DNA of 41,362 nt from Chromatiales bacterium (GTDB taxonomy: Bacteria; Pseudomonadota; Gammaproteobacteria; SZUA-152). The translations under genes and the position numbers were made by a program. Position 1 is the stretch's first letter. Every line of letters starts with the position of its first letter. Positions 3,405 to 41,362 of this stretch are shown piece after piece. Where the stretch lies: the NCBI GenBank assembly GCA_026982555.1, contig JALSGT010000149.1, positions 1-41,362 on the forward strand. Reading direction: 5' to 3'. The notes under the pieces were generated by a model. It did no database searches and had not been told where the DNA came from. It saw nothing but the letters and a program-made list of their open reading frames with translations.

Positions 3405-3537
3405 GTCACTTCTCCAGCTTTATATACTTTAATGTGTCAATAATTCGGGGCGGTTGTACCCACAATTGCTCTGACGTGGCCCCATTCCTTGTAACTATCG
3501 GTCTTGCGGAAAAAAATCTTTACCTATTCTTAATTAT

Positions 3538-4758: not shown

Positions 4759-4787
4759 AAATTAATCCATCAGATTCCGGTTAATGC

Positions 4788-6494: not shown

Positions 6495-6496
6495 GT

Positions 6497-7609: not shown

Positions 7610-7612
7610 GCA

Positions 7613-8518: not shown

Positions 8519-8541
8519 GGATGTTCACCGCCGTTTTTACA

Positions 8542-10332: not shown

Positions 10333-10348
10333 TGTTAGTTCCCTTGGC

Positions 10349-11372: not shown

Positions 11373-12004
11373 GGTGATGCCTCCGTCAAGGTGGTGGTCT
11401 GTGGTGGTTGTGTGCCGGTGTATACAATGAAATCAACAAAACGGGTGTCAGGCTTTTCACGTTGAATTTGCAGCAAGCCAAACTCAGTACCACTTAATGC
11501 ACTTTCACTGGAAAGTTGCTGTAAAAATACCGGCACCAATGCCGCCTGTAATGATCTGCCGCGAATCACCAAACCTTCGCCACCCGCCTGTACGCTAAAA
11601 CCGGTCAGCCACACTCCCTTGGGAGCTTGACGGGAAAAACTTTCCAGATAATTTGAGATGCCATGTGTGTAACTGTTTTTTACCCGCGTCAGCGCAGCGA
11701 CGACTTTTTGCCGGGCTGCCAATTCCTGTTCCAGACTGGTCAGCGCCAACTGAGGGGCGGTATCTGTTTTCATTCCAGCCAGGCGACCGCTCACTTCAGC
11801 CAGTTGCGTGGAAAACTGTGTTTGCCGCTTTTTTAGTTGCGCCAAATCGGTTTCCATTTGTTGTGTCTGTTGCACGCTCCAGCCGTACAGTAAAGTCAGC
11901 ACCACTAATACCGCTGCACAAGCCTGGGTCAATACTCTGAACGACAGCAGTTTCCGTTCTTTGCGAAAAATGGGTTGAAACAAATTGACCTGCTGATTGA
12001 TCAT
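11369..12004 (-). CDS. PilN-like MSHA biogenesis protein (MshI2-type)
   Basis: A 211-residue bitopic protein beginning MINQQVNLFQPIFRKE, with the conserved INLF box by which PilN-family proteins bind an actin-like PilM partner. A transmembrane helix spans about 28-44 and a coiled coil about 48-80, followed by a PilN C-terminal domain (GVWLTGFSVQ). It is the first gene of the operon. No PilM/MshI1-like gene lies upstream in this window, where a divergent regulator is found instead, so the cytoplasmic PilM partner must be elsewhere or absent. Confidence 0.78.
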   Translation of the reverse strand: MINQQVNLFQPIFRKERKLLSFRVLTQACAAVLVVLTLLYGWSVQQTQQMETDLAQLKKRQTQFSTQLAEVSGRLAGMKTDTAPQLALTSLEQELAARQKVVAALTRVKNSYTHGISNYLESFSRQAPKGVWLTGFSVQAGGEGLVIRGRSLQAALVPVFLQQLSSESALSGTEFGLLQIQREKPDTRFVDFIVYTGTQPPQTTTLTEASP

Positions 12005-15341: not shown

Positions 15342-15419
15342 AAAAACAAGACGCGAATAATTTTTCTTTAGTGGTCACGCTGTTTAAAGGGTGCCATAAC
15401 AGTTTTTTGGAGCATTACA

Positions 15420-18176: not shown

Positions 18177-18218
18177 GTCCATACAAACAAGCAACAGACG
18201 TATTTGAGGATTAAGACG

Positions 18219-19856
18219 ATGGCTAAAAGAACAGTTAACCGAACCGCGAGACGCATGAAAAAGAATCGCCACGGGCTTTCACTCGATGCACCTCTGTTGC
18301 ATCAGGACCATAGTCGTCCGGTAACGCGGCGGGACTTTTTGCGCCAGGGCTTTATTACGGGCACGGGTGTCACGCTGGGTGGTTCGTTGTTTAGCCTGTT
18401 TGCTAATCCGCGTGCGGCACACGCAGCGTTGGCAGACGACTTGCAAGCCATGTTTGCCAACAACGACAGCTGCGCATTGGGCACTGCTGGCGGCAATATT
18501 CCTTTTATCTGTTTTGATCTGGCGGGCGGTGCCAGTATGGTTGGTTCCAATGTATTGGCGGGTGGACAAGGTGGCTATCTCAATGATCCCATCAGTGCTG
18601 CGGGCTATAGCAAAATGGGTATTCCCGGTGATATGGTGCCCGGTATAGTCGATGCTGCTTCGACCATGAGTGGTCCCAATAACGATTTCATTGACACTCG
18701 CCTGGGTTTGCCTTTCCATTCGGACAGTGGCTTTCTACGCGGTATTATGGAAAAAATCAGTGTTGGAACTGCCCCGCTGATTAATGGTGCAGTCATCCCC
18801 GCCCGTTCTGATAACGACACAGGTAACAACCCGCATAACCCGATGTACGGTATTGCCCGCACGGGTTCTAATGGCAGCGTAGTCACTCTCATCGGTTCGC
18901 GTAATTCTGAGTCGGGCGGCAACTCTATGGCACCCGCGATGAGCATTGATCCTTCTGTTCGTCCTACCAAGGTGGACCGTCCTTCGGATGTCACCGGCAT
19001 GGTAGAAACAGGTGATCTTACTGCGGTATTGACCGAAGCTGATGCCAAAGCTGTGATGGAATCTATCGCCCGCCTTAGTGATAAAAAAGTTGCCAATATC
19101 AACGCGAGTGCCGTAGTGAAGGATCTGGTGAATTGTGGCTACTTGGGTGCTGCGGATATTGCAGATCGTTTTGTGGGTGTGAATATTGATCCAGCCACAG
19201 ACACCAATATTGTTGGACCGAGCGGCATCTTCAATCAAACCGAATTTGATGGCGAAGGTGAATTCCGCAAAACTGCTGCCGTGATGAAAATGGTCATCGA
19301 TGGTTACGCCGGAGCGGGTACCATCACCATGGGTGGTTTCGATTATCACACGGGTGACCGCCAGGCCGGTGAGCGTCGAGACCTGCGCGCCGGGCGTTGC
19401 ATGGGAGCCTGCCTGGAGTATGCCGCACGACGGGGTCAACCATTGATGTTATATGTTTTCAGTGATGGTTCTGTGGCCAGTAATGGCACCATCGATGGTT
19501 CGCAGGACGGTCGTGGTAAAGGTGTGTGGACCGGTGATAATTCTTCTACAGCGGGCAGTTTTTTCCTGGTCTACAACCCGACGGCCACCGGCGGTCAAGC
19601 CACGCTGTTTTCCGGGGACAATCTCGGTGCAGAACGGCATCAGCAAATCGGCTGGTTCCGTGCAGATGGTTCGGTAGAAACCTCGTCCAGTGTGGCTGCC
19701 AACAATGTCAACCTGCTGGTAGATACTGTAGTGCTTAATTACCTTGCCCTGCATGGCTCGGATTATCGTGAGGTTTACCGCAGCCTGTTTCCCAATAACG
19801 ATCTGGGTACTGATGCGCACATGATGAGTTTGACGGCTTTCAATCCTATTCGATGA
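18219..19856 (+). CDS. Tat-exported DUF1501-like protein
   Basis: A 545-residue protein with a twin-arginine signal, T-R37-R38-D-F-L-R-Q, a hydrophobic core GTGVTLGGSLFSLF and an A-H-A cleavage site near 69. Overall layout and motifs (GGGFDYH-like GGFDYHTGDRQAGERRDL, VFSDG, NDLGTDAHMM) resemble DUF1501, a large family of exported proteins with an alkaline-phosphatase/sulfatase-like fold. The ATG at 18219 is chosen because GAGG lies 9 bases upstream; an upstream in-frame TTG at 18204 is less likely. It is 42 bases after the lipoprotein gene. Tat export suggests folding or cofactor loading before secretion. Substrate is unknown. Confidence 0.65.
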   Translation: MAKRTVNRTARRMKKNRHGLSLDAPLLHQDHSRPVTRRDFLRQGFITGTGVTLGGSLFSLFANPRAAHAALADDLQAMFANNDSCALGTAGGNIPFICFDLAGGASMVGSNVLAGGQGGYLNDPISAAGYSKMGIPGDMVPGIVDAASTMSGPNNDFIDTRLGLPFHSDSGFLRGIMEKISVGTAPLINGAVIPARSDNDTGNNPHNPMYGIARTGSNGSVVTLIGSRNSESGGNSMAPAMSIDPSVRPTKVDRPSDVTGMVETGDLTAVLTEADAKAVMESIARLSDKKVANINASAVVKDLVNCGYLGAADIADRFVGVNIDPATDTNIVGPSGIFNQTEFDGEGEFRKTAAVMKMVIDGYAGAGTITMGGFDYHTGDRQAGERRDLRAGRCMGACLEYAARRGQPLMLYVFSDGSVASNGTIDGSQDGRGKGVWTGDNSSTAGSFFLVYNPTATGGQATLFSGDNLGAERHQQIGWFRADGSVETSSSVAANNVNLLVDTVVLNYLALHGSDYREVYRSLFPNNDLGTDAHMMSLTAFNPIR

Positions 19857-27400: not shown

Positions 27401-28617
27401 TCAGTGCAGTACAGGCAGCACCCAAAAAATACGATATCGCCATTGTTGGCGGCGGCATGGTAGGCAGTGCATTAGCCTGCGCCTTAGGTAGCCATATCGA
27501 AAGTAATAACACATTAAAAATCGCCCTTATTGAAGGATACAAATTACCTGCGCAGTGGCCCAACGATTCTTTTGACCTGCGTGTCAGTGCAATTAATCCT
27601 GCCTCACAAGCCCTTTTTAAAACACTGGGTGTATGGAATGCAATGCATGAAATGCGCGTCACCGCCTATACCGAAATGCATGTATGGGATGCTGGAGGCA
27701 ATGGCAGTATTCATTTTGATAGCGCCGAAATCGGCGAAGCCAGTCTTGGTCACATTATTGAAAACCGTATTATCAATAAAGCACTGATTGACCATGCCCA
27801 CACTTTTGACAATATTGATGTTTATTGCCCCAATACCCCCACAAGTCTTCAACTCGACGACGACTCTGCCAATCTACAATTAGATGATGGCACCCTGCTC
27901 CAGGCGGAACTCCTGATAGGTGCCGATGGTGGGCAATCCTGGGTGCGGCAACAGGCTGACATTAGCGTTACGGTCAGTGACTACCAACAAACCGCGGTGG
28001 TTGCCAGCATTACCACAGAGCATGCACATCAACATACCGCCTGGCAACGGTTTTTGCCCAGCGGGCCGTTGGCCTTTTTACCCGTAAGCGAAAACAACAT
28101 CAGCTCCATTGTCTGGAGCACACGCGCCGAAGAAGCAGAACGTTTATGTGAGCTGGATGAAATGACTTTCAAGCAGGAGCTGGAAATTGCCTTTGAGAAA
28201 AAACTGGGAAAGATTTTGCACGCCGGGCCGCGCGCATGTTTTCCTATTAAAGGTCAGCATGCAAAAAACTATGTTAAACCGCATCTCGCCCTGGTTGGTG
28301 ACGCAGCGCATACTATCCATCCGCTGGCCGGACAAGGGGTTAATCTGGGGTTTGCAGATGCACAATGTCTTGCAGATGTCGTGCTCACAGCATATGCGGC
28401 ACACAAACCCATAGGCAGCTTCAAAACTTTACGGCGTTTTGAGCGTGCTCGGCGTGGCGATAATTTATTGATGCTGGAAGCTATGGGAATATTTAAAAAC
28501 CTGTTCAGTAATAATAAGCCAGGGCTGCGTGAATTACGCAATATTGGGCTTGATATTTCTGACCGTGCCACACCTATCAAGCATTTTTTTATGGCAAAAG
28601 CACTAGGGGGGCGTTAA
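27397..28617 (+). CDS. ubiI: Ubiquinone biosynthesis FAD monooxygenase (UbiI/VisC type)
   Basis: A 406-residue paralogue of UbiH with IAIVGGGMVGSALACAL, LIGADGGQSWVRQQ and LVGDAAHTIHPLAGQGVNLG. The GTG at 27397 overlaps the ubiH stop and has GAGGG 8 bases upstream; longer in-frame extensions into ubiH are rejected. Gene order ubiH-ubiI points to the C5 hydroxylase UbiI, but the UbiF-type C6 hydroxylase cannot be excluded by eye. Confidence 0.85.
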   Translation: MISAVQAAPKKYDIAIVGGGMVGSALACALGSHIESNNTLKIALIEGYKLPAQWPNDSFDLRVSAINPASQALFKTLGVWNAMHEMRVTAYTEMHVWDAGGNGSIHFDSAEIGEASLGHIIENRIINKALIDHAHTFDNIDVYCPNTPTSLQLDDDSANLQLDDGTLLQAELLIGADGGQSWVRQQADISVTVSDYQQTAVVASITTEHAHQHTAWQRFLPSGPLAFLPVSENNISSIVWSTRAEEAERLCELDEMTFKQELEIAFEKKLGKILHAGPRACFPIKGQHAKNYVKPHLALVGDAAHTIHPLAGQGVNLGFADAQCLADVVLTAYAAHKPIGSFKTLRRFERARRGDNLLMLEAMGIFKNLFSNNKPGLRELRNIGLDISDRATPIKHFFMAKALGGR

Positions 28618-28626
28618 CACCCCCTT
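28605..28626. terminator. Weak G/C hairpin between convergent ubiI and cyaA
   Basis: AGGGGG and CCCCCT flank a 9-base loop and overlap the ubiI stop codon. No T-run follows, so termination is uncertain. It sits where the converging ubiI and cyaA transcripts meet. Confidence 0.25.
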
Positions 28627-28642
28627 GGTCAATAGAGAAAAA

Positions 28643-31477
28643 CTATAATCTGGCAAGCTCCCGGTTCATTTTTTCTTCAATGCGTTTTTTGTATTTCAGA
28701 TAATCGATGACTTGTACGTTATCAGTACGTCGCGCACCTAATAACGTCGGTGATAAGTCCACATCAGTAATATAAATAGGGTAACGCTGAGCACTGCTGC
28801 GTTGCGTTAATACATAACGTACGACTTCCCGGAATAAATGTTTCCCATAATCCAGTGACGAAAATTCCTGATCATTGCAATACACAGTGAATTCAGCATT
28901 TTTATCCACCATGTCACCAATGACCTGTACATCAAAATAACGTGGAGGCCGATTAATATCCGGTGTCTTTCGGCTAAAGCTATATTTATTAAATCGACGT
29001 TTTTTAACTTTATAAATTTCCAGAGCATCCAGCATCAGGCTGGCATTTTTATCCTGAAACAAAAAGCTTTGCCGGTTTAATACAGCATCAAAGAAACGGC
29101 TGTAATGATTTACCAGCGCCTCATCTTCAAAGTGCGGTGCGCGCTGATGAAATAATGAACCATTTTCATCCAGCACAAAGACATCCACTTCTTTGCCCAG
29201 GCCAAAATAAAACATTTGAATAAATCCGGTACGGTTCCTCGACAAAATAGAGGGTAGTGGTGTATTCAGCAAGGCATAGCGATCTACTTTAATGGGGCGG
29301 AAAGTATCCTGCGGTGCTGCCAGTGCTTTTAACAGGTCTTCGTAGGTGGATTGATATGTGTAAGTAAATGCGCTGGTATCTGACCCCAATAAAAAATAGG
29401 ACTTTTCCACCTGTAAAATATAACGTGCCCCCCCTCCATTATTTAAGTTGGAGAATGTAGCAGCGACATCTTTGTAGAGTTCTTCAATGCGTTGTGCAAT
29501 CGCCCGGCTATGACTGGAAGAATAACTGAAGGCTCGTAATGAGGGAGGCTTCCCCGCATTGTCTGCCGTATTCCAGCGCATATATTGCGACATGCAATCC
29601 AGTAAACCTTCGATACCGACATATTTGTATGTGATAACTTCCTGCCAGCTGGTGACGACCACCAGATCAAAAGTCAATGCCAGGTTTAATGAAAAACCAC
29701 TGTAATTCATTACATCAGACTGGTCACTTACCAGGTCAGTGCCACGTCGGGAATGGCGTGGCAGCGGATCAATACCCACGTTGACAAACAGACAGCCTTT
29801 TTCAATCAATGGAGGGTTGTTAAAGTTCTTAATTTCGGTTTCTTGCAAGTGACCATCAGGAAACAATGATTGCAAAGCATCCAGAATTGACCGTGTTTCT
29901 TTCAAGCCTAAAATACTGTCACTTAACAATAATGTGATGATAGTGCGCAGCCCAACCAAACGGTTAAAATGGCACCAGGCAAGTACTTCAACAATGCTGC
30001 GTGCACGTTTTAATGCCCCCCCCGGTTCGTGCCCATCCACAATGCCTGGATATAAGCTCCACGATTCTTCCGTATTTTTTCCCTTGCTTTGAATGATGGT
30101 GATATTGCTTTCAACAATATTGGCAGAAATGCCGCGATTAATGGTTTCGATTTTACCGGCCTTGCGCTCAAATGCCGCATACAATTTTCTTCCCAGAATG
30201 TTGAGGTCTTTCTGCTCTATACGCGCCAGCTCGGAATGTGCGCGCGCGAATTTTGACAATGCCATATAGCTATGTGTTATTTCATCAACCAGTATACGGC
30301 GCTCTTTTAATACCTGATGTACGTTCCAAGACTTTCGGTTGTCCAGCATTTCAATATGTCCTTCCGACCAATGCCAGGTCTCGGCCAATTCAAGCATTCG
30401 CCGCCATCGCCAATTCTGGTTCATTCTTGATTGGCGACTCAGAACCATTTCTACTTTGAAATAAAAGCAGCGACGTACTACATCCAAGCGCTCAGGGGAT
30501 TTTTGTGCGGTTAAATAATTTTCCAGTTTTTCCAGAAGAATGGTATATGGATCGAGCATGTCCATGTCCTTTATACCTTCGTAAATCGCCTGCTTGTATC
30601 TCAGGCTCAATAAATCACTGTGTGGGTATTCTGCGGCATAGGCTTCCATCAACAGCATTTTCAACACGGATTTATAGGGTGAGTCAATGCCTTTATAAAC
30701 TTGCCATAGCGCCGCGCCAAAAAACTCCTCCGCAGGAATTTCACTTAATCCACCAAAATCAATAACTTCATTTTCCGGGATAAAACGTTGGCGGATAAGT
30801 CGTGACACATATTTTTTGTAATTTTTTTCTTCATTCGGTGGTACCAGCCACCATACAGGATAACGCCCGGCCACCAGCAAACCTGTACGATAGAACTCCT
30901 CCAGCAGCAAATGATGTTGAGTGCTGCCACTGCTTTCACGGCTTAGCTCAACGACATTGCCGCCGCGAAATTTTTCTGCATCCATCAGAAAAAAATGTAT
31001 TTCCAAGCCCACAGAAGTGCCCCACTCTTCAATTGACTCACATTTTTCAGCAAGCTGAAATAGCTGTTCTTTATCCAATCCAGGGCGATGACAAACCCAG
31101 ACATCAAAATCACTTTTTTCCGAATGCGCAATAGTGCCAACACTGCCCATCAAAAAAATTGAGTGAATATCAAAAGTTCTTAACGCCCTTTTTTTATAAT
31201 CAAAACTTTTGGCAATACGCTTGCCCGCTTCCAGACCTTTTTTGGTAGGTGCCCAATTTGAGATTCCGGCAGGTGTTTGCTTGGATACGAAACCGGGTAA
31301 CATGGCGTGATTGATATGGAACAGCACGGGTAATAATTCCAGAAAATCACGATTGCGCCAACTTAATACCCCTTCTGCACGCCGCAAACGCTCCCGGTTA
31401 ATTGCCAGAAAACGCTTGCGTATCGCGCGTACATCCAGGTGGTCATCGCTGTGTTTTATGCGTTTTGCTATCGACAT
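28643..31477 (-). CDS. cyaA: Class I adenylate cyclase
   Basis: A 944-residue cytoplasmic enzyme that makes cAMP from ATP. The N-terminal catalytic domain shows RNRDFLELLPVLFHIN, LMGSVGTIAHSEKSDFDVWVC (G-S and the paired Asp of the nucleotidyltransferase fold) and the long helical regulatory region typical of enterobacterial-type CyaA. Length is somewhat above the E. coli enzyme (848). The ATG at 31477 (MSIAKRIKH) is preferred; an ATG at 31555 would add 26 basic residues and abut a hairpin. It supplies the ligand for any CRP acting at the sites at 12143 and 13705. Confidence 0.92.
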   Translation of the reverse strand: MSIAKRIKHSDDHLDVRAIRKRFLAINRERLRRAEGVLSWRNRDFLELLPVLFHINHAMLPGFVSKQTPAGISNWAPTKKGLEAGKRIAKSFDYKKRALRTFDIHSIFLMGSVGTIAHSEKSDFDVWVCHRPGLDKEQLFQLAEKCESIEEWGTSVGLEIHFFLMDAEKFRGGNVVELSRESSGSTQHHLLLEEFYRTGLLVAGRYPVWWLVPPNEEKNYKKYVSRLIRQRFIPENEVIDFGGLSEIPAEEFFGAALWQVYKGIDSPYKSVLKMLLMEAYAAEYPHSDLLSLRYKQAIYEGIKDMDMLDPYTILLEKLENYLTAQKSPERLDVVRRCFYFKVEMVLSRQSRMNQNWRWRRMLELAETWHWSEGHIEMLDNRKSWNVHQVLKERRILVDEITHSYMALSKFARAHSELARIEQKDLNILGRKLYAAFERKAGKIETINRGISANIVESNITIIQSKGKNTEESWSLYPGIVDGHEPGGALKRARSIVEVLAWCHFNRLVGLRTIITLLLSDSILGLKETRSILDALQSLFPDGHLQETEIKNFNNPPLIEKGCLFVNVGIDPLPRHSRRGTDLVSDQSDVMNYSGFSLNLALTFDLVVVTSWQEVITYKYVGIEGLLDCMSQYMRWNTADNAGKPPSLRAFSYSSSHSRAIAQRIEELYKDVAATFSNLNNGGGARYILQVEKSYFLLGSDTSAFTYTYQSTYEDLLKALAAPQDTFRPIKVDRYALLNTPLPSILSRNRTGFIQMFYFGLGKEVDVFVLDENGSLFHQRAPHFEDEALVNHYSRFFDAVLNRQSFLFQDKNASLMLDALEIYKVKKRRFNKYSFSRKTPDINRPPRYFDVQVIGDMVDKNAEFTVYCNDQEFSSLDYGKHLFREVVRYVLTQRSSAQRYPIYITDVDLSPTLLGARRTDNVQVIDYLKYKKRIEEKMNRELARL

Positions 31478-31556
31478 GCCAGGGCTTCTCTCTTTAATAC
31501 CTTTTCCGCTTTGTCTCAGTTTTCGACTTTTTTCTAACGCGCGCGGAATACGCATT

Positions 31557-31663
31557 GTGGCGGTAAAAAATACCCCGCCACCTCATTACTTCGGCACCAT
31601 TCTTTAATGTTTGAGGTGTAAACAAGCTACAATTGGTGACGGTAAGCGCTAAAGTTTTACCGT
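31557..31663. repeat. Two hairpins upstream of cyaA
   Basis: GTGGCGG (31557-31563) pairs perfectly with CCGCCAC (31575-31581), and ACGGTAA (31639-31645) with TTACCGT (31657-31663). They lie in the 325-base gap between cyaA and the divergent PAS/GGDEF gene. They may be operators or leader structures. Nothing else was identified in this gap apart from a GGAG ribosome site before 31803. Confidence 0.5.
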
Positions 31664-31802
31664 TGTAAGACCGCTGATAAGCCCATGTTCCTGTTGATGA
31701 TTTGTGTATGGCAAAATGATACAAGAAAAATCAATGGGTTACGCCGCATGATGACGATTATTTGGCACACTGATACACACACCACTTCAGGAGCATCGCC
31801 GC

Positions 31803-32672
31803 ATGGATGAACCCAGCCTCGATACCAGCCGACACATTCTTGCCAACGCACCCATGGCCATTATCATTACGGATGACGATGGCTTGGTGCTCTGGTGCAA
31901 CAAGACATTGACGGCATGGCTGGAATGTCCACCGGGACACTGTATCGGGCGCACAGAGCTGGCGTTATTGGGAAAAAATGCCTCGGCAAATCAGGATGAG
32001 AGTACCGGGGTGAATAATGGTCCCTTTACTCTGGGTTATACGCAGCCAGGTATCCAGCGTCGTGTGCTACGTTACTCCCTGCCGCCGAATAATGGTCAGT
32101 ACACAGTTTGCTATCTTGATATCAGTGAAGAAGAGATGCTGCGCAGTGATCGCAATCAGCTGGCGCAGCAACTGGCACAGCACAATACAGTAGATACCCT
32201 GAGTGGTCTGCTGAATACACATGCCATCAACAGAGGGCTGGAGCCACTGATCTCACGCAGCCGCCGCTATCAGAACCCGTTGTCGGTGGTGACCATGGAC
32301 ATTATTAATCTGGAGGAGATTATCCAGTCTGCGGGTCAAGTAGCCGCAGATAAAGTGATTGTCGCTGTCAGCCAAATGCTGCGTGACCAAATACGCTGGG
32401 CAGATATGGTAGGGCATATAAGTGCAGGTCAATTTATTTTTATTTTACCGGAAACCGACAAAGATGCTGCTGTCGCATTGGCCAATAAGCTGGCCGGGCA
32501 ACTCAAAAACTTCACAATAATGATTGGTGAGCAGACCGGTATACAGGCCGTCGTCTGTTTTGGTGTTACTGCCTGGGTCAAAGGTGATGATGCCCGTTTA
32601 TTGATGTCACGTTCCAATGATACCGCACAAGCGGCTCGCCAAAATGGAGCCTTTACCGTAAAAATCACATGA
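31803..32672 (+). CDS. PAS protein with degenerate GGDEF domain
   Basis: A 289-residue soluble protein. A PAS domain spans about 8-108 (ILANAPMAIIITDDDGLVLWCN, VCYLDISEEE), followed by a short helical linker and a GGDEF fold about 128-285 (VDTLSGLLNTHAINRGL). The signature position reads S207-A-G-Q-F211 in place of G-G-D-E-F, so cyclase activity is unlikely. It may act as a ligand sensor or as a partner that binds nucleotide without catalysis. A GGAG site lies 9 bases before the ATG. It is divergent from cyaA and its stop is followed closely by the YqgE-like gene. Confidence 0.82.
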   Translation: MDEPSLDTSRHILANAPMAIIITDDDGLVLWCNKTLTAWLECPPGHCIGRTELALLGKNASANQDESTGVNNGPFTLGYTQPGIQRRVLRYSLPPNNGQYTVCYLDISEEEMLRSDRNQLAQQLAQHNTVDTLSGLLNTHAINRGLEPLISRSRRYQNPLSVVTMDIINLEEIIQSAGQVAADKVIVAVSQMLRDQIRWADMVGHISAGQFIFILPETDKDAAVALANKLAGQLKNFTIMIGEQTGIQAVVCFGVTAWVKGDDARLLMSRSNDTAQAARQNGAFTVKIT

Positions 32673-32779
32673 TTTTTTATCCTCTGCGGGCTCCCCGCTC
32701 ACAGAGGGTTTCCGCTATACTCATGATTCATACTCGCAATACCGCCCTGGCAGATTGTCCGTGCGGTCTGGAGGCGGTC

Positions 32780-33430
32780 ATGCCCTTACAACACCACCTG
32801 CTGAGTGCTATAGCACACAATCACACTGTTCGGCATATCTTGTTTGGCGTGCTGATGATTCTCGGTGGATATTCAACAGCCGTTGCGGGTGCGGCACCGT
32901 ACCATTCGCCGTCCGCCCAAAAAAGTGAAGGCGTATTTCTTGTTGCCACAGAACAGCTGCATGGCAGCAGTTTTCAGCAAACCGTTATTCTGTTAACCCA
33001 TTACAGCAAACAGGGTGCCACCGGGCTTGCCATTAATCGGCCTGCGGGCATACCGCTGCAACAGGCTTTTCCCGGGGTTCGTCAATTACAGCAACGTACT
33101 GACCCGTTGTATCTTGGTGGCCCGGTAAGCACCAATGCTATTTTTGTATTGCTACGCACGCAGCAACCCGGAAAGACCATGCACCACATTGCCGATGACG
33201 TTTATTTTTCCACCGGAAAAAATGTTTTTACGCATTCACTCAAGCCCAGAACACATGCCGCGACACGCACCTATGCGGGTTATGCGGGTTGGGCTGCCGG
33301 GCAACTACAAAACGAAATCAGTCGTGGTGACTGGATTATGGTGCGTACTCATCCCAAAATTGTTTTTGAGGAAGACTCCAAAAGCCTGTGGCAACGTTTA
33401 AGTAAACGCTGGACTGGAAAATGGATTTAA
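32780..33430 (+). CDS. YqgE/AlgH-family protein with an N-terminal signal peptide
   Basis: A 216-residue protein. GGAGG 5 bases before the ATG at 32780 supports this start over the longer frame from 32669. Residues about 18-40 form a basic-then-hydrophobic stretch (RHILFGVLMILGGYSTAVAGAAP) like a cleavable signal peptide. The rest is a DUF179/YqgE domain (GVFLVATEQLHGSSFQQTVILL, TGLAINRP, YLGGPV, YAGYAGWAAGQLQNEI). Canonical YqgE has no signal peptide, so export is unusual. Function of the family is unclear (AlgH was linked to alginate regulation). Confidence 0.8.
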   Translation: MPLQHHLLSAIAHNHTVRHILFGVLMILGGYSTAVAGAAPYHSPSAQKSEGVFLVATEQLHGSSFQQTVILLTHYSKQGATGLAINRPAGIPLQQAFPGVRQLQQRTDPLYLGGPVSTNAIFVLLRTQQPGKTMHHIADDVYFSTGKNVFTHSLKPRTHAATRTYAGYAGWAAGQLQNEISRGDWIMVRTHPKIVFEEDSKSLWQRLSKRWTGKWI

Positions 33431-33458
33431 GATTCGATAACTCCGAATTAACACAACT

Positions 33459-34001
33459 CTATTCATCTTCATCAAAATCTTCAGGTAATTCATGTGCCAC
33501 GCCTTTGTGGCAATCGATACAGGTCTGACCTTTTTCCGCCATCTTTTTATGTTTTCGTGCGGCACGTCCTTGCTGCTCTTCAAAGTCCATGGATGCCACA
33601 GCATGGCAAACACGGCACTCACGAGAATCCGTTTCTTTCATGTTTTGCCACACCGTTTTAGCCATTGTCAGCCGATAGCTTTCATATTTTTCCTTGCTGT
33701 CAATAGTGCCAATAAGGTGATGCCAAACATCCTTGGCCGCACGGATTTTAGCGACCATCTTGGGGCCAAAATCCCGTGGCACATGACAATCCGAACACGT
33801 TGTGCGTACACCAGTACGATTTCTATAATGTACGGTATCTTTATATTCTTCATAAGCAATACTCATTTCATGGCAGGAAATACAAAATGACTCAGTATTG
33901 GTTGCATTTAATGCGCCATGAAAACCCACAGCGAGTAAAGCGCCCACAATTAGTGTGCCGATAATGACAGACAGAGAAATTCCCTTTAGCAGTTTACGCA
34001 T
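33459..34001 (-). CDS. Tetrahaem NapC/NirT-type membrane cytochrome c
   Basis: A 180-residue protein with one N-terminal transmembrane helix (about 8-28) and four haem c motifs: C40-x-x-CH44, C69-x-x-CH73, C129-x-x-CH133 and C161-x-x-CH165. Spacing and the H-E-M residue after the first motif match the NapC/NirT/CymA family, inner-membrane quinol dehydrogenases that pass electrons from quinol to periplasmic or outer-membrane acceptors. It has the four-haem form and a strongly acidic C-terminus. It is the last gene of a set that starts with the porin-cytochrome, 38 bases after the flavoprotein gene. Confidence 0.88.
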   Translation of the reverse strand: MRKLLKGISLSVIIGTLIVGALLAVGFHGALNATNTESFCISCHEMSIAYEEYKDTVHYRNRTGVRTTCSDCHVPRDFGPKMVAKIRAAKDVWHHLIGTIDSKEKYESYRLTMAKTVWQNMKETDSRECRVCHAVASMDFEEQQGRAARKHKKMAEKGQTCIDCHKGVAHELPEDFDEDE

Positions 34002-34039
34002 AAAATGGCCGAATCGTCATTTTGTTGAACATAGCAGAG

Positions 34040-35332
34040 TCAGGTTTTTCCAAACGTATCCATGGTAATTCCCTTATACCAACCGGACGCAAACCTGGCC
34101 TCTTTGAGTCGTGTTTTGCGCGATGCCTTTTTAGCACTCAAACCGCCCGCAACCTGTTTCAATTTTCCATTTTTCAAACGGTATACTCCCGCTGATGAAA
34201 AGGCATACTTGGGGTTGAGGAGACTGTAGATGCCGGTGTTGTAGGTGACATCCGGTATGGTGCCACCATTCAATTCAATCACGATAGCAGCCGCACAAAT
34301 TTTACCCTGGGTATTGGCGCTGTGCCCCGTTTTTTGCATAGGGTCCGCAATACAGGCATCACCAATCACATGAATATTTTTTTGTAATGTAGACGCGAAA
34401 TTTTGTGGATTTACAGGACACCAGCCCGACTCATCTGCCAAGCCGGTAACCCGTGCAATCTTCCCCGCGTGTTGTGGTGGAATTAAATTAACAACGTCGC
34501 CTTTAAGAGTGCCGATTGTGCGTCCTGTCAGTGATAGTGCCTTGGTATCTGCGGATACAATCTCACCCTGCTCCGAGCCATCAACCCATTCAATCATACC
34601 CTTATAGAGTTTTTCCCAGCCTTTACGGAACATGGCCAGTTCTTCAGAGTCACCACTGGAGTCAATCAGTAGAATTTTCGAAGAAGGCTTGGTTTTTTTA
34701 AGGTAGTGCGCGATCAGGCTGGCGCGCTCATAGAGAGCAGGAGGGGCACGAAAAGGTTTACGAGGCGCTGCAATAATGACGTTACCACCATCTTTCATCG
34801 CCTCTAATTGTTTTCGCAACAAAAGAGTTTGCGCACCGGCCTTCCAGGCATGCGGCATAATTTTACTATTTTCCGCACTTGCCCCTTTGATTTCATGCCA
34901 GTTAAAAGAAATACCGGGAGAAACAACCAATCGATCATAGGCGAGTGTTTTACCACTTTTCAGTTTAATTTTTTTCGCAGAGGCATCAATTGAGATCACC
35001 GTATCATGCATGATATTAACGCCATGATTTTTACGCAGCCCATCATAATTGTGGGTAATGAAGTTTATCGATTTCATTCCTGCCAATACAGTATTGCTGA
35101 ATGGGCAGGTAATAAACTGAACGTTTGGTTCAATCAAAGTTACATTCAAGCTGGAATCATACTGACGTAAATAATTGGCACAGGTTGCACCACCAAAGCC
35201 ACCGCCAACCACCACCACGCGAGCTTTGGATTTTGCCATGGCGCTGCCTGGAAAAACAAAGCCATTGGCTGAGGAAATAATGCCAGCGGCCCCCAGTAGT
35301 TTGATAAATGTTCTGCGATCAATCTGGTTCAT
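34040..35332 (-). CDS. FccB-like flavoprotein lacking the redox cysteines
   Basis: A 430-residue Tat-exported protein (signal D-R-R-T-F-I-K-L-L) homologous to the FAD subunit of flavocytochrome c sulfide dehydrogenase. It has a GGGFGG dinucleotide fold, the covalent-FAD cysteine region F-I-T-C77-P-F-S-N (numbered from the GTG at 35335) and a C-terminal GDACIADPMQKTGHSANTQGK. In FccB a redox disulfide joins Cys161 (in F-R-C-P-P) and Cys337 (in N-T-C-Y-S). Here the same places read F-R-A-P-P and N-T-G-I-Y-S, so both are missing. It is adjacent to a small cytochrome c as in fccAB. The activity may differ from sulfide oxidation. Confidence 0.85.
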   Translation of the reverse strand: MNQIDRRTFIKLLGAAGIISSANGFVFPGSAMAKSKARVVVVGGGFGGATCANYLRQYDSSLNVTLIEPNVQFITCPFSNTVLAGMKSINFITHNYDGLRKNHGVNIMHDTVISIDASAKKIKLKSGKTLAYDRLVVSPGISFNWHEIKGASAENSKIMPHAWKAGAQTLLLRKQLEAMKDGGNVIIAAPRKPFRAPPALYERASLIAHYLKKTKPSSKILLIDSSGDSEELAMFRKGWEKLYKGMIEWVDGSEQGEIVSADTKALSLTGRTIGTLKGDVVNLIPPQHAGKIARVTGLADESGWCPVNPQNFASTLQKNIHVIGDACIADPMQKTGHSANTQGKICAAAIVIELNGGTIPDVTYNTGIYSLLNPKYAFSSAGVYRLKNGKLKQVAGGLSAKKASRKTRLKEARFASGWYKGITMDTFGKT

Positions 35333-35346
35333 CACACCGCCCCTGA

Positions 35347-35685
35347 TTATTTATCTAAAGCTGAAAAATATTCGGCGAGCAGATTAATCTCATCATCACT
35401 TAGTGCTTTAGCGTATCGCCCCATGATGGTGGATTTTTCATCACCCGACTTAAAGCCAAATAGACTTTCGGTGATATCACTTTTTTCCAGCCCCTTAAGT
35501 TCGGGAATTTTTCCTGATCCAGACCCGTTTGGTCCATGACACGTTAAACAGGCATCGGCCATCATTTTAATTTTATTGGGTGCTGCGGCCATAACGGTAT
35601 TTATTGAGAGCAATAATGTGACAGCGCTAATTGTCAGTAAATGCACTGATACATTCCGTGTCATACATTTTTTTTGTTTCATCAT
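35347..35685 (-). CDS. Small periplasmic class I cytochrome c (FccA/SoxX-like)
   Basis: A 112-residue protein with a signal peptide (about 12-35), one haem motif C46-L-T-CH50 and the downstream S-T-I-M-G-R-Y-A-K-A-L-S-D-D-E-I that provides the Met ligand. This is the class I single-domain cytochrome fold of the FccA/c553 type. The ATG at 35685 has GGAAA upstream; the open frame continues to 35748 without support. It lies 14 bases before the FccB-like gene, the arrangement of fccA-fccB, so it is the likely electron acceptor of that flavoprotein. Confidence 0.82.
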   Translation of the reverse strand: MMKQKKCMTRNVSVHLLTISAVTLLLSINTVMAAAPNKIKMMADACLTCHGPNGSGSGKIPELKGLEKSDITESLFGFKSGDEKSTIMGRYAKALSDDEINLLAEYFSALDK

Positions 35686-35773
35686 GGTTTTAATATTTCC
35701 ATATAAATAACTGTGGCAGTGTATTAGACGGGTATGTGTTTTTTGCAAAATATTATTCCTTTAATAGGTATTA

Positions 35774-35816
35774 AATAATGCAAGCCATACAGAAAATTTG
35801 TATGGCTTGCATTATT
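35774..35816 (-). terminator. Strong hairpin between porin-cytochrome and cytochrome c genes
   Basis: A perfect 18-bp stem (35774-35791 with 35799-35816) and a 7-base loop, about 40 bases after the porin-cytochrome stop. On the minus strand it is followed by TAATACC, with several T at the end of the stem. It probably ends or attenuates the porin-cytochrome transcript, so the three downstream genes would be less expressed or use a separate promoter. Such hairpins may also stabilise the upstream mRNA. Confidence 0.65.
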
Positions 35817-35858
35817 TTAAATCATCATGTTGCTCAATGATTCATTGAATAATAAAAA

Positions 35859-37019
35859 TTATAAACCAACATAGAGCTGAAGAGTTAAACGATTATCTTT
35901 ATCGATACCCGTTGGCGTATCAAAACGATCCCAATACTCGATATAGGCTTTAATATTTTGTGCCAGATAATGGGTAACGTTTAAAGTCAACTCATTGTAT
36001 TCATGGGTGCCATCATTTCTTTCATAGTTGTCCAAGCGCACCAACTGCACCCAGGTAGGCATGCCTTTTTTGGTTTTCATAACGTTATAAGCCTGAATGG
36101 AGAATGCATTGTTTTTATCTGTTCCCCCCGTTACATCATCCTCGGCCATGACATAAGCTGCCTGAACACGGATATTTTTCAGATCAGCCTGGGTATCGAT
36201 TGCCATGCGATTGAAATTCATGTTGCCCGCCTCACCATCGAGGATATAGCCGCCCACCATGATGTTCTTTTTCACATCAAAGGCAACACGGGCATTCATG
36301 CTGGTACCGTTTCCCGGGTCATTGCCGGATATACCTTCAACATTATCTGCTACACCACCGAGACCAATGTTATAAAATAATTTATCATCGGCAACACGGC
36401 CTGTTACGGCCACATTTTGGCGTTTGGAGCGTAAATTCCCACCATTGTCAGCGCCACCAAAGTTTTGATCAATGACACCTACGCTGCCACGGGTTAATCG
36501 GAAATGATTGCCGAGGAAACCATAGCCGTCAGCCCAGTTGGCCTGACTCCAGGTCATTTGCAAAGTGGCTTCGTTGTTGAAACGATAAGACAACGCAGTA
36601 CTGCCAACTTCTGGCGCAAAGCCGGCTTCGTCTTCAGCTTCAATTTGAGTGAATACGGAAACGTTTTTACCCATGGTGCCGGCAATAAATAGCGCCACAC
36701 CATGAACTGCACGCACCATACGATCACCATTGTCTGTTTTATCATATGGGCGTGAAATAACCAGGCCACTTATTGGAAAATTACCAGCCTCATAATAAGG
36801 AGCGGTTTTACCTTCTATCTTTAAGTCTTCCTTAAGGCGATAACCCCGTTCTTTGAATTTTCGGCCTTTGTTATTCAGTTGGGGCCATGCGTTATGACAG
36901 TATGAACAATTTTTTTCGTATTTAGCTGCGAATGACGGTACGGCCTGAGCGGTTCCCGTTAAAGTAATGCCAGCAACGGCCAATATGCTCAGGGCCAATC
37001 CTGTTTGAATACGCATCAT
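35859..37019 (-). CDS. Cyc2-like fused cytochrome-porin, outer membrane
   Basis: A 386-residue protein. Signal peptide ends at A26 (TGTAQA). Directly after it, the mature N-terminus carries one haem c site in A-K-Y-E-K-N-C38-S-Y-C41-H42-N-A-W-P-Q-L, followed by N-N-K-G-R-K-F-K-E-R-G-Y. This layout, one N-terminal haem then a porin-like beta-barrel (alternating strands to the end at Y-V-G-L), is that of Cyc2-type fused cytochrome-porins. The start at 37019 is chosen because AAGGAG lies 6 bases upstream; an ATG at 37043 is in frame but unsupported. It would move electrons across the outer membrane; direction is unknown. Confidence 0.78.
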   Translation of the reverse strand: MMRIQTGLALSILAVAGITLTGTAQAVPSFAAKYEKNCSYCHNAWPQLNNKGRKFKERGYRLKEDLKIEGKTAPYYEAGNFPISGLVISRPYDKTDNGDRMVRAVHGVALFIAGTMGKNVSVFTQIEAEDEAGFAPEVGSTALSYRFNNEATLQMTWSQANWADGYGFLGNHFRLTRGSVGVIDQNFGGADNGGNLRSKRQNVAVTGRVADDKLFYNIGLGGVADNVEGISGNDPGNGTSMNARVAFDVKKNIMVGGYILDGEAGNMNFNRMAIDTQADLKNIRVQAAYVMAEDDVTGGTDKNNAFSIQAYNVMKTKKGMPTWVQLVRLDNYERNDGTHEYNELTLNVTHYLAQNIKAYIEYWDRFDTPTGIDKDNRLTLQLYVGL

Positions 37020-37043
37020 CAAGCTCTCCTTGTTAAATTCCAT

Positions 37044-37612
37044 CGTAATTTTTATATTCTGGTTTATATCAATGACACAAAAAATGAATACCCCTGTTAT
37101 TATTTATTCTCCGGATAGAGTCAGGCAGCACTCAATAATTACAACTGCCGCATAAATTTATAACGATTTTTTTATGCCTATAAAAACTTGCAGGCACAGT
37201 AAAGCTCTGCTGCTGAGAATCAAATCAGATGCCGGGGAAGGGACTCTTGAATGAGAAATATAACTACAATTAAGAGTTTGCTAATGTTAAGTCATCAACC
37301 TTCGCACGTCCCTTGTTTGCAGCGTGATATTCCCTGGCAAGAGCCTCATCATTTTAGTAGGTAAAATAGTATGTGTGAGACACAGGTATGACAAGCTTTT
37401 TTTTCCAAAAAAACCTAGGTAATTTCCCTTGTAGCTTGATGGGAAAGTGCCGCTAAAAACAGGTAAAATTGTTTTATGATAGTTTTCTCAGGCAAGGGTA
37501 TATTGCCTGTATGACTGATAGTTATTGAAAATAAACATCAATTGCAGCGGACTGGCTCCATCAGAAAGGTAAAGGCCGACACTGGGTTTTACGTAGCAGG
37601 CTACATAAAAAC
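37044..37612. other. Intergenic region upstream of the porin-cytochrome gene
   Basis: About 570 A/T-rich bases without a supportable gene. It should hold the porin-cytochrome promoter on the minus strand. Visible structures: an inverted repeat CAGGCAA / TTGCCTG at 37489-37509, and a larger hairpin overlapping the dbpA stop (arms 37585-37597 and 37600-37613, with one bulge), without a T-run. No CRP or FNR site with a good match was seen. Confidence 0.4.
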
Positions 37613-39001
37613 CTATTCACATATTTGCCTGACTCGAAACGAACGCCCTTTTAATTTTCCTTCTTCCAGTTTTTTCAGTGCAGGTTTAACAACTTCACGG
37701 TTAACCGCCACATAGGCCCGGTTGTCATCAATGCTGATTTTCCCAACGTGTTTTCCGGCGATACCCTCTTTCCCGGTGAGAGCACCAAGAATATCACCCG
37801 GACGCACTTTTTGTTTTTTACCGCCATCAATCTGTAAAGTGACCATGGCTGGCTGATAGGGTGTTTTATTCAACAGATTTGATGATGGCAGCGTCTCATT
37901 ACTGATATCTTGTTTAAGGTAGTCTTCCAGCATTGCGACTTTATAACTTTCTTTGTCGGTATACAGCGTACAGGCAATGCCTTTGCTGCCAGCCCTGCCT
38001 GTACGGCCAATGCGATGCACATGTACTTCGGTATCGCGTGACAGATGATAATTAATGACCGCATCCAGTGCATCAATATCCAGACCGCGTGATGCGACAT
38101 CGGTAGCGACCAGAATCGATGTGCTTTTATTACTGAAGCGTACCAGTATCTGGTCGCGGGCTTTTTGATCCAGGTCGCCGTGCAGTGCCAGCGCACTAAA
38201 ACCATATCGAACCAGCTCATCCGCCACTTCCTGTGTCTCACGCCTGGTGTTACAAAATACCAGAGCAGACTCGGGACAATGTGCCAACAACAGCAAACGC
38301 AAGGCATCCATGCGTTGCTCATCACCGCTTAATTTATAAAAATGTTGCTCAATGCTGGCCTCATCATGTGTCGAAGCCACTTGCACTATCACGGGATCAA
38401 TCATGATCTGTTTTGCAATGGTTTGTATCTGCTCAGGGTAAGTGGCACTGAATAACAGTGTTTGGCGCTTGCGGGGCATATGCGCGATGATGGCATCCAG
38501 TGTTACCTGAAAGCCCATGTCCAGCATGCGATCAGCCTCATCGAGAACAAAAACTGTCAGGCGCTGTAAATCCAGAGTACCTTTGCGCAGATGTTCTTCA
38601 ATGCGTCCCGGCGTACCAACCACTATATGGGCGCCATGTTCTAACGAACCAATTTGCGGACCAAAAGGCATACCGCCGCAGAGCGTCAGTATTTTAATGT
38701 TATGGGTTTTACGTGCCAGCTTGCGCAATTCTTTTGCCACTTGGTCGGCCAGCTCCCGGGTCGGGCAAAGAACCAGTGATTGTACGCAAAAACGTTTTAC
38801 CGCCAGTTTTTCCAACAGCCCCAGGCCAAAAGCTGCCGTTTTTCCTGAGCCGGTCTTACCCTGCGCAATGACATCGTTTCCCGCCAAAATGGGCGGCAGG
38901 CTTTTTGCCTGTATAGGTGTCATCGTCAAATAATTCAGCGATGTGAGATTTTCAAGGAGCTCAGTACGTAACTTGAGAGATGAAAAACAAGAGTGACTCA
39001 T
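37613..39001 (-). CDS. dbpA: ATP-dependent RNA helicase DbpA
   Basis: A 462-residue DEAD-box helicase. Motifs I (GKTGSGKT), Ia (PTRELADQV), II (VLDEADRM), III (SATYP), IV/V (ATDVASRGLD) and VI (HRIGRTGR) are all present. The C-terminal domain (about 385-462; VTLQIDGGKKQKVRPGDILGALTG) is the DbpA RNA-binding domain that recognises hairpin 92 of 23S rRNA and directs the helicase to 50S assembly. Length matches E. coli DbpA. It precedes nothing it is clearly coupled to and lies 43 bases from the ABC-F gene stop. Confidence 0.93.
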   Translation of the reverse strand: MSHSCFSSLKLRTELLENLTSLNYLTMTPIQAKSLPPILAGNDVIAQGKTGSGKTAAFGLGLLEKLAVKRFCVQSLVLCPTRELADQVAKELRKLARKTHNIKILTLCGGMPFGPQIGSLEHGAHIVVGTPGRIEEHLRKGTLDLQRLTVFVLDEADRMLDMGFQVTLDAIIAHMPRKRQTLLFSATYPEQIQTIAKQIMIDPVIVQVASTHDEASIEQHFYKLSGDEQRMDALRLLLLAHCPESALVFCNTRRETQEVADELVRYGFSALALHGDLDQKARDQILVRFSNKSTSILVATDVASRGLDIDALDAVINYHLSRDTEVHVHRIGRTGRAGSKGIACTLYTDKESYKVAMLEDYLKQDISNETLPSSNLLNKTPYQPAMVTLQIDGGKKQKVRPGDILGALTGKEGIAGKHVGKISIDDNRAYVAVNREVVKPALKKLEEGKLKGRSFRVRQICE

Positions 39002-39043
39002 TCTGAATAACCAATAGGGTGTAAAAAATAAAACAACAAAAAA

Positions 39044-40633
39044 TCAATTCGCATTTTTGTTACGCAGGTATTCTTCATAAGTACCATGAATATCGACAAT
39101 ACCCGTGGGCGTCAATTCGATAATGCGTGTCGCAATGGAAGAGACAAATTCACGGTCATGGCTGACAAAAAGCAATGTGCCGGGATAGTTTTCCAATGCC
39201 AGATTGAGTGATTCAATCGATTCCATGTCCAAGTGGTTAGTCGGCTCATCCAATAACAAAATATTAGGGCGTTGTAGCATTAATTTACCAAACAACATGC
39301 GCCCCTGTTCGCCACCGGAAATAACGTCAACCGTCTTATTGATATCATTTTGTGAAAACAACATGCGTCCCAGAGTGCCACGGATAACCTGTTCATCATC
39401 ACTTTCTTTTCCCCACTGGTCCATCCAGTCATATAAATTTTTACGCTCTTCAAAATCAGCCGCATGGTCCTGCGCGTAATAACCGATATTTGCATTTTCA
39501 GACCATTTCACTTTTCCGGTAGTGGGTTCCAGATCACCGACCAGACATTTCAACAATGTTGATTTACCAATACCGTTGGGGCCGATTATTGCAATACGTT
39601 CACCCACTTCCACCGTAAGATTGAGCCCGGAAAACAGGTCTTCATCAAAGTGTTTGCTGAGGTTTTCCACCTCCAGTGCCAAGCGATGAAGTTTTTTATC
39701 CTGTTCAAAACGAATAAAAGGACTTTGCCGACTGGAAGGCTTTACTTCGGTCAGCTGAATTTTATCAATTTGTTTAGCGCGTGATGTCGCCTGTTTTGAT
39801 TTTGACGCATTGGCTGAAAACCGACTGACAAAAGCTTTAAGCTCGGCAATCTGCGCACTCTTCTTGGCGTTGTCTGAGGCCAGTTGTTCACTGGCCTGTG
39901 TCGCTGCCGTCATATATTCATCGTAGGAGCCGGGGTAAATACGCAGTTCACCGTAGTCCAGGTCAGCCATGTGCGTACACACACTGTTCAAAAAATGACG
40001 ATCATGGGAAATGATAATCATCGTGCAATTGCGCTCGTTTAACACCCCTTCCAGCCAGCCAATGGTATTGATGTCCAGGTTATTGGTGGGTTCATCCAGT
40101 AGCATGATGTCAGGCTCTGAAAATAAAACCTGTGTCAGCAACACCCGCAGCTTCCAGCCTGGAGCCACTTCACTCATCGGGCCGAAATGCTGCTCAACAG
40201 GGATGCCCACACCCAGCAATAGTTCACCGGCCCGTGCCTCGGCGGTATAACCATCCATCTCGGCAAAATCATGTTCAAGATCAGCAGCCCGCATGCCATC
40301 CTTCTCACTCATTTCCGGATTGGCATAAATTGCATCACGCTCAGACTTCACCTTCCAGAGTTCCTCGTGGCCCATGATCACCGTATCAATCACGCTGAAT
40401 TCCTCGTACGCGAACTGATCCTGCCTCAACTTGCCAATACGTTCGTTTGGGTCTTTTGAAATATTGCCCGCAGAAGGTTCCAGGTCACCACCCAGAATTT
40501 TCATCAGGGTGGATTTGCCGCAACCGTTGGCACCGATGAGTCCATAACGATTACCATCACCAAACTTAACGGAAATGTCTTCAAACAACGGCTTGGCGCC
40601 AAATTGCATCGTAATATTTGCAGTGGATAACAC
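39044..40633 (-). CDS. ybiT: ABC-F ATPase YbiT
   Basis: A 529-residue ABC-F protein (two ABC domains, no membrane part). Walker A motifs GANGCGKST and GPNGIGKST, Walker B plus [12 protein letters not shown] and LDEPTNHLD, and a linker rich in Ala/Lys/Ser. The first signature is the degenerate [10 protein letters not shown] typical of YbiT, the second is SGGEQGR. ABC-F proteins act on the ribosome E-site. The GTG at 40633 with GGAAG upstream gives the family length; the longer open frame to 40873 is not supported. Confidence 0.92.
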
Positions 40634-41316
40634 GATATTCTTCCTGTAAAAATAATTGAGTGACGTATACAGATGATTCTGTACACGATAATAGTTTGCC
40701 CGATGGGAAAACAGGCGAATGCTAAAAACAGCATGCGCAGGCGTATTTAAAATAATCTCAGTTGTCTCAGTGCAGGTATTGACACTGTTTTTGACAGAGA
40801 ACCCAGCAGTAGAGCGGATGTAAATACATATAAAACAATAGGTTAAATGTATTTTTCGGCAAATTATGGACAAAATGCCTTTCCTGCTGAAAGTGATTAT
40901 ACGCGAGCATCAATTTTTATAAAAACAGCATTATTCCATGTAAGAATTCGGACGCCATCTTGAATTTTCAGTCCTTTCTATTTTTGCAACACAGGCTCAA
41001 ATCCATCAGGCATCTACTGGGGTGGTTTGCAGTGTTTGATGGGACATCAACAACGCAAGCTGCATTCGTAAAGACAATGCTTCGGCCATCATGGCCCGTG
41101 TTCGCCACCGCTGTATGCATGTGCTCGAACGTGCGCCTTCTTCCATCAGTTTGGCCAAAAAATGCCGCAAGGCGGCATGGAGTGCTGGCTGTTGCGCTAG
41201 AGTCTATTTATATGCGGTCGCCTTGTACGCCTGACCAGACGGGCAGACAACCCCCTTCCATTATTGTATTATGTTCAGCAATATCATCAACATACCCGCA
41301 CGCAGCAGAGCCCCCT
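40634..41316. other. Right-end intergenic stretch
   Basis: About 680 bases with no full-length gene. It contains the ybiT promoter region on the minus strand, A/T-rich near 40880-40990, and a coding-like remnant on the minus strand at 41006-41203. No repeats or RNA genes were recognised. Confidence 0.4.
41006..41203 (-). pseudogene. Possible coding remnant
   Basis: A frame of about 65 codons, open from a stop just right of 41203 to a TGA at 41006-41008, reads as an Ala/Leu/Arg-rich helical peptide (FLAKLMEEGARSST, then MMAEALSLRMQLALLM). No ATG lies near its left end with a ribosome site. It may be the tail of a decayed gene or a chance open frame. I do not recognise the family. Confidence 0.2.
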
Positions 41317-41362
41317 ATGCAACCCGCCAACATCATCTGTGACCGTTTTGAACAACACTATT
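41317..41362 (+). CDS. Start of a gene cut by the window edge
   Basis: Fifteen codons from ATG at 41317 (MQPANIICDRFEQHY) are visible before the window ends. The ribosome site is weak. Product unknown. Confidence 0.3.
   Translation, partial: MQPANIICDRFEQHY

Follow-up and report, generated by a model that had tools for sequence, protein, structure and literature searches.

A four-gene cluster of a Chromatiales bacterium as a candidate trans-envelope respiratory module with a disulfide-less flavocytochrome c and a cytochrome-porin

Gene content and layout

The window is the whole 41,362-nucleotide stretch of contig JALSGT010000149.1 of a Chromatiales bacterium (assembly GCA_026982555.1), and the subject of this analysis is a set of four adjacent minus-strand genes at 33459–37019, hereafter the module. 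In gene order, these encode an outer-membrane cytochrome-porin, a small cytochrome c, an FccB-like flavoprotein, and a NapC-type cytochrome. An earlier sequence-only reading had named these four genes and assigned their products to the outer membrane, periplasm, and inner membrane, and all four open reading frames (ORFs) are found where it placed them.

The porin gene comes first (35859..37019) and encodes a 386-residue protein with a signal peptide, one N-terminal CXXCH, and a predicted 16-strand barrel; its ATG at 37019 is preceded by AAGGAG. Judged from the ORF coordinates, gaps of 110 nt, 11 nt, and 38 nt separate porin from cytochrome, cytochrome from FccB-like gene, and FccB-like gene from NapC, respectively, and a convergent AlgH gene ends 28 nt past NapC. 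The arrangement has the appearance of an operon-like unit, and the four genes may be transcribed together.

The small cytochrome (minus strand, 35347..35748) has an uncertain start, at either TTG 35748 or an ATG at 35685, 35682, or 35664. It matches Pfam PF00034 (Cytochrom_C) with an E value of 6.4e-7. The solved structure that it matches best is 5n1t_B (2.8e-15), which is the cytochrome subunit of a flavocytochrome c; 3vrd_A and 1fcd_C are matched as well. As the FccB-like protein finds its own best match in the same PDB entry, the cytochrome is regarded as FccA-like and the two likely represent a monohaem flavocytochrome c pair, whose members would form a complex.

NapC-type proteins exchange electrons with quinones, and the last gene of the set (minus strand, 33459..34001; 180 aa) presumably encodes the quinone-pool end of a chain. 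Its product carries four CXXCH motifs within the ORF and belongs to the NapC/NirT family (PF03264, E 2.3e-70). It scores below the NCBIfam cut-offs for napC_nirT (239 against 310.6 bits), NapC PRK10617 (215.1 against 349), TorC (222.8 against 478.2), and NrfH (63.3 against 134.2), and by these cut-offs is not NapC, TorC, or NrfH in the strict sense.

The flavoprotein and its redox cysteines

The FccB-like protein (minus strand, 34040..35335) bears a twin-arginine translocation (Tat) signal and matches the Pfam families FCSD_central (E 5.9e-38), FCSD-flav_bind (E 3.6e-16), and Pyr_redox_2. Its nearest solved relatives are flavocytochrome c sulfide dehydrogenases (FCSDs), first that of Thioalkalivibrio paradoxus (5n1t_A, 3.5e-131), followed by 1fcd_A (4.4e-112) and 3vrd_B (1.6e-108), and both domain architecture and full-length similarity place it within the FCSD family. 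With the FccAB proteins of A. vinosum (1FCD), T. tepidum (3VRD), and T. paradoxus (5N1T), it has in common the FccB fold, the FAD-linking cysteine, the Tat signal, and an adjacent FccA-like cytochrome gene; the module differs from them in that both redox-active cysteines are replaced and the genes are coupled to a cytochrome-porin gene and NapC.

In FCSD (A. vinosum numbering), Cys42 carries the FAD, and the Cys161–Cys337 disulfide binds and oxidises sulfide (PMC3504083, PMC12010331). The FAD-linking cysteine is kept in the window protein as residue 77, equivalent to Cys42 of 1FCD, and this position is cysteine in all 35 aligned module-type rows (duplicates and fragments counted). The redox pair is replaced, with Ala197 at the position of Cys161 and Ile369 at that of Cys337. 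Ala161 and Ile337 recur in all 11 distinct module loci compared (the window, L004–L009, L012–L014, and L054), whereas all 58 other FccB loci and two PDB chains have Cys/Cys. The 58 comprise 29 loci from a search of the phylum, 28 from a search of the class, and L098 from genome G775; of the phylum and class matches, only those with the best scores were checked, and an FccB without the disulfide may have escaped notice further down the rankings. The alignment took in matches of at least 150 residues, which excludes a fragment from G773 (L097) with the ordinary cysteine at 337, and ten fragmentary module-type rows stop before position 337, so that only Ala161 is visible in them. Duplicates of one genome were merged by hand, with L004–L009 taken as G006, G003, G009, G007, G002, and G011 on the agreement of contig numbers and coordinates.

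Only five columns (161, 164, 304, 337, and 379) are fixed in the module type with a residue that at most two of the 60 others share, and we count it in favour of a functional change that two of the five are the redox cysteines themselves. In a tree of ten module rows and 60 others, the module-type proteins form a single clade (support 100/99). The search scores agree with a separate clade: in the phylum sample (94 of 398 genomes matched at an E of 1e-80 or below), the window's own copy scored 828.8 bits and the next match 522.6, and in the class sample (114 of 369 genomes matched) the window's 828.8 bits and a congener's 833.6 were followed by 627.7. In genome G775, a module copy without the disulfide coexists with an ordinary FccB at another locus (L098), which argues that the two types are not interchangeable.

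The sequence-only reading had linked the flavoprotein to FccAB and sulfide oxidation, a link that is not supported, both redox-active cysteines being replaced in every module locus; for the same reason, sulfide oxidation was dropped as the default interpretation. By its defining residues, the FccB-like protein should not be called a sulfide dehydrogenase, and it probably handles something else. It might still be a sulfur enzyme, oxidising sulfide, polysulfide, or an organic sulfur compound without the Cys161–Cys337 disulfide, in keeping with its near relationship to FCSD, three solved members of which match it at E 1e-108 or better, and with the fact that the canonical FCSD mechanism is only a deduced requirement. 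The residues missing from all 11 loci are, however, those that bind and oxidise sulfide in flavocytochrome c (PMC12010331), and the coexistence of both types within G775 speaks against their being interchangeable, leaving this explanation improbable.

Annotation pipelines would name these genes FccAB and predict sulfide oxidation, yet the module fails at the defining feature of that assignment. Ala161 together with Ile337 offers a ready marker by which metagenomic copies of the module flavoprotein could be told from true sulfide dehydrogenases. In six of the 58 other loci, all of one family (L077, L079, L082, L085, L086, and L087), Cys161 and Cys337 are kept and the Cys42 column holds glycine, which may be an alignment effect.

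The cytochrome-porin and conservation of the set

No Pfam family above cut-off and no NCBIfam entry matches the porin. An AlphaFold2 model built from 12 sequences shows 16 strands, with a mean pLDDT of 58.4 and a pTM of 0.59, the haem segment (residues 13–51) falling below a pLDDT of 50; a second prediction, of the mature chain without its signal peptide, was worse (mean pLDDT 54.3). Foldseek returned 164 PDB matches at E 0.001 or better for the model, headed by OmpT of V. cholerae, Omp32, and VhChiP, which are general porins of the 16-strand type. The product is thus likely a barrel, as the sequence-only reading had expected, albeit one modelled with low confidence.

That reading had also called the porin Cyc2-type, which holds in part. 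Cyc2 is described as having a 16-strand barrel and the motif AXPXFAR[Q/K][T/Y] ahead of its haem site (PMC8406198). All 12 aligned porins have one CXXCH with a downstream PXL, and none has the exact motif; the window protein reads AVPSFAAKY, in which alanine replaces arginine. The porin is therefore not Cyc2 by the exact motif, and its match to that motif is approximate only. Cyc2 fused cytochrome-porins and module porins share a signal peptide, the single N-terminal CXXCH followed by PXL, a predicted 16-strand barrel, and a length above 365 aa; they differ in the motif and in their partners, which are a flavocytochrome c and NapC in the module instead of Cyc1 and an oxidase. FeGenie-style searches might name the porin Cyc2 and predict iron oxidation, although it lacks the defining feature.

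The likeness to Cyc2 invites an electron-uptake explanation, ranked after the periplasmic reductase discussed below, in which the porin oxidises Fe(II) or another donor and electrons reach NapC and the quinone pool by way of the cytochrome and the flavocytochrome. The Cyc2-like haem segment with its invariant CXXCH and PXL and the 16 predicted strands, as in Cyc2 (PMC8406198), are in its favour, as is ImoA of Sideroxydans, a NapC-family protein proposed to reduce quinone (PMC13390432). The absence of the exact Cyc2 motif from all 12 porins tells against it. We also know of no role of a covalent flavin in iron oxidation, which we count against uptake, and the explanation appears rather unlikely.

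Further cytochrome-porins were seen elsewhere. The window's own genome has two, one with the exact Cyc2 motif as ANPAFARQY (L002, 1471–2745, contig C117) and one without it (L003, 1351–3051, contig C47), the latter preceded by a gene for a small secreted Cys/His-rich protein with no Pfam match. In G004, tandem cytochrome-porin genes (L057, 2855–6415) lie beside a MerR-like regulator and what by eye resembles a metal-binding or metal-pump-like protein.

All 11 genomes with the module-type FccB have the genes for porin, cytochrome, and flavoprotein side by side on one strand (in L054 the contig start truncates the porin), and in 10 of them NapC comes next; in L012, another gene on the opposite strand occupies that place. 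The set is thus not scattered in other genomes, a point that the sequence-only reading had left to be checked. Partial copies also occur at contig ends: L010 has porin and cytochrome, L011 the porin, and G005 a NapC (L142). A search of genome contigs with the porin found 11 loci; of 57 relatives, 19 gave a porin match of some kind, for the most part a paralogue. The carriers are mostly marine bacteria; the two Emcibacter (L013 and L014) are Alphaproteobacteria, and the others are Gammaproteobacteria or Ectothiorhodospiraceae where stated.

FccB-profile searches, a less biased test than those with the porin as query, revealed no module-type FccB without a porin among the 57 best-scoring non-module loci checked. 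At genus level, a close porin occurs in 7 of 12 genomes. G004, G008, and G010 have the same neighbourhood (adenylate cyclase, GGDEF, and AlgH) without the module, and in G011 the module lies on a contig other than that of AlgH. Hence, the module is an accessory unit within the genus.

Gene order recurs in ten other genomes, and the flanks differ in L009, L012, and L013/L014, which indicates more than chance. An association of neighbours without common function would draw on the porin relatives that occur without FccB: the porin profile has a match at 1e-25 in nine of 369 genomes of the class, of which two carry the module, and in the other seven and G014 the relative sits beside other c-type cytochromes or alone—at least eight genomes in all—while L012 lacks an adjacent NapC. 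Set against this are the same order and strand in ten further genomes of two classes with different flanks, and chance is very hard to believe as an explanation.

Two flanking regions of module loci deserve mention in their own right. Genes upstream of the L012 module (5171–6646) encode a protein with a hemerythrin domain and another with three CXXCH motifs that matches cytochrome c', a combination suggestive of a nitrogen-oxide context. In Emcibacter, both loci have a divergent porin gene upstream of the module (L013, 5440–6609; L014, 5350–6651), and that of L013 matches Porin_O_P (E 8.3e-76).

The NapC partner has its own history. In a NapC tree, which is short and unevenly supported, the Emcibacter proteins stand apart from those of the window's family, and well-supported branches force at least two changes. 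The NapC partner was thus probably replaced or recruited more than once, as if needed and not simply inherited. Ordinary FccB loci supply a precedent for a flavocytochrome c with NapC: at 11 of the 58 (L061, L063, L064, L068, L071, L073, L075, L076, L084, L119, and L123), a NapC-type gene lies no more than 1.5 kb away on one side or the other, always on the same strand, and none of the 58 has a porin. These 11 could represent a possible route from sulfide to the quinone pool. Such clusters of other Pseudomonadota (for example, L061, L063, L064, L071, L084, L119, and L123) share with the module its flavocytochrome c genes and a same-strand NapC-type gene, but they keep Cys161 and Cys337, they have no cytochrome-porin nearby, and several encode a two-CXXCH FccA. 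The module can be seen as this recurrent FccAB–NapC pair with a porin added and the disulfide removed. The FccAB–NapC pairing is thus less unusual than the sequence-only reading had implied; the full four-gene set occurs at none of the 58 ordinary loci. At another NapC-type locus (L151, 1465–3228, in G775), the domain appears by eye to be fused to a long C-terminal haem-binding-like region (587 aa), and the preceding gene encodes a beta-propeller-like protein that looks related to nitrite reductase.

Upstream region and a possible electron path

Upstream of the porin lies a 146-nt block (37286..37429, minus strand in the window) that is conserved in six congeneric loci, each in a different genome, and contains a promoter-like TTGTCA-17-TACTAT (37394 to 37366). 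Searched with nhmmer, the block had no match at the other loci compared, bar one marginal hit (E 0.13). Promoter-consensus sites were at chance level (10 against 10.4 expected), and the 10 terminator-like sites found, against 4.0 expected, are not used in the argument. No known RNA or riboswitch reached its gathering score in 28000–41362, and the only RNA match at E up to 1 in 37000–37640 was potC (E 0.66), far under its cut-off. By eye, the conserved block seemed to contain a short reading frame, but this is broken in L005 and was dropped.

FNR-type sites were scored against TTGAY-N4-RTCAA, a consensus relaxed after palindromes had been spotted by eye in relatives. Exact sites lie within 200 nt of the porin start in L010 (two), L011 (two), L013, and L014, a result reached in 0, 2, 4, and 2 of 400 first-order random sequences, respectively; the strict form TTGAT-N4-ATCAA occurs only in L010 and L011. 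Among porin-only loci, two of six reach 9/10 of the consensus. The window, L004–L009, and L012 have no exact site, their best being 8/10, which is chance level, and FNR-type control of the window's own copy was rejected, as its best site (8/10) was equalled by 246 of 400 random sequences. With L013 and L014 being sister loci and only partial modules at L010 and L011, the palindromes offer a hint, not proof, of low-oxygen or nitric-oxide control in relatives. They do not point to electron uptake, though nitrate-linked oxidation would be compatible with them.

The reading that we tentatively place first, at somewhat less than an even chance, is a quinone-linked redox chain running across the periplasm to the outer membrane, built from a disulfide-less flavocytochrome c and a cytochrome-porin. 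NapC would exchange electrons with the quinone pool, and the FccA-like cytochrome and FccB-like flavoprotein would form a flavocytochrome c that no longer uses the sulfide-dehydrogenase disulfide, its FAD serving as an electron-transfer centre or a new catalytic one. Since one haem cannot by itself span the outer membrane, the partner has to be small enough to come into the pore; the cytochrome-porin may admit a metal ion, a chelate, or another small molecule to its single haem at the periplasmic mouth. The putative order would be quinone pool, NapC, FccA-like cytochrome/FccB-like FAD, and cytochrome-porin. The habits of NapC proteins and the FNR-type sites in relatives tip the balance slightly from inward towards outward flow, from quinol to an acceptor when oxygen is low; CymA oxidises quinol in Shewanella (PMC4484225).

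Several points weigh against such a chain. AlphaFold2 left the porin haem segment unmodelled, at a pLDDT below 50, L012 has no adjacent NapC, and no exact FNR-type site lies at the window, its five close relatives, L009, or L012. The porin served as query for finding most of the module loci, a bias towards the porin–flavoprotein pairing. A single haem on a 16-strand barrel cannot alone wire a solid outside the cell, and a simple haem wire needs no flavin, which suits better the main rival, a periplasmic terminal reductase. There, NapC would feed the flavocytochrome c, whose FAD would reduce a soluble acceptor entering by the porin, and the porin haem would be accessory or structural. Feeding periplasmic reductases is the classic role of NapC-family proteins (PMC4484225), the FAD pocket is intact with only the disulfide and near neighbours changed, and the palindromes of four relatives would fit equally. 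FccB-family enzymes studied to date are, however, sulfide oxidases, the proposed reductase has no known substrate, and the conserved CXXCH, which the porin would not need on this view, is nonetheless present in 12 of 12; a reductase is judged unlikely, yet the most serious competitor to the trans-periplasmic chain.

The layout of that chain has a precedent in Shewanella, in which CymA (NapC family), periplasmic FccA/STC, and MtrCAB (PMC4484225) follow the same plan of a NapC-family quinol dehydrogenase, a periplasmic flavocytochrome or cytochrome, and a haem-bearing outer-membrane porin. The Mto/ImoA system of Sideroxydans likewise places a NapC-family protein between the quinone pool and periplasmic monohaem cytochromes, but it employs the multihaem conduit MtoAB, and no FccB-like protein figures among its parts as described in the available text (PMC13390432). 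At the level of parts, the module and the Shewanella chain look unrelated. The Shewanella flavocytochrome is of the fumarate-reductase type as opposed to the FCSD type here, and a 26-strand MtrB with decahaem cytochromes stands against a 16-strand, one-haem porin.

It is possible, though doubtful, that the module is an undescribed trans-envelope respiratory system. It would then be a minimal counterpart of the Shewanella CymA–flavocytochrome–porin chain made from unrelated parts: a NapC-type protein would act as the quinone gate, a monohaem porin would sit in the outer membrane, and what was once a sulfide dehydrogenase would work between them as a flavin relay or reductase lacking the disulfide. 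The system would also have spread between the Gamma- and Alphaproteobacteria. No prior description of the four-gene set or of a disulfide-less FccB was recognised in the partial open-access literature, which is weak evidence of absence. If true, the module would represent a compact, expressible envelope-crossing route and a natural experiment in the conversion of a thiol-dependent flavoenzyme to another use.

Elsewhere in the window, a minus-strand set of type IV pilus or secretion genes (2970–12004) includes those for an MshEN/T2SSE ATPase and a secretin and resembles an MSHA-type pilus operon. On the plus strand, 14124–19856 contains three genes. Two encode CXXCH motifs, one of them together with a Laminin_G_3 domain, and the third a Tat-like signal; Pfam gives a match for only one of the three.

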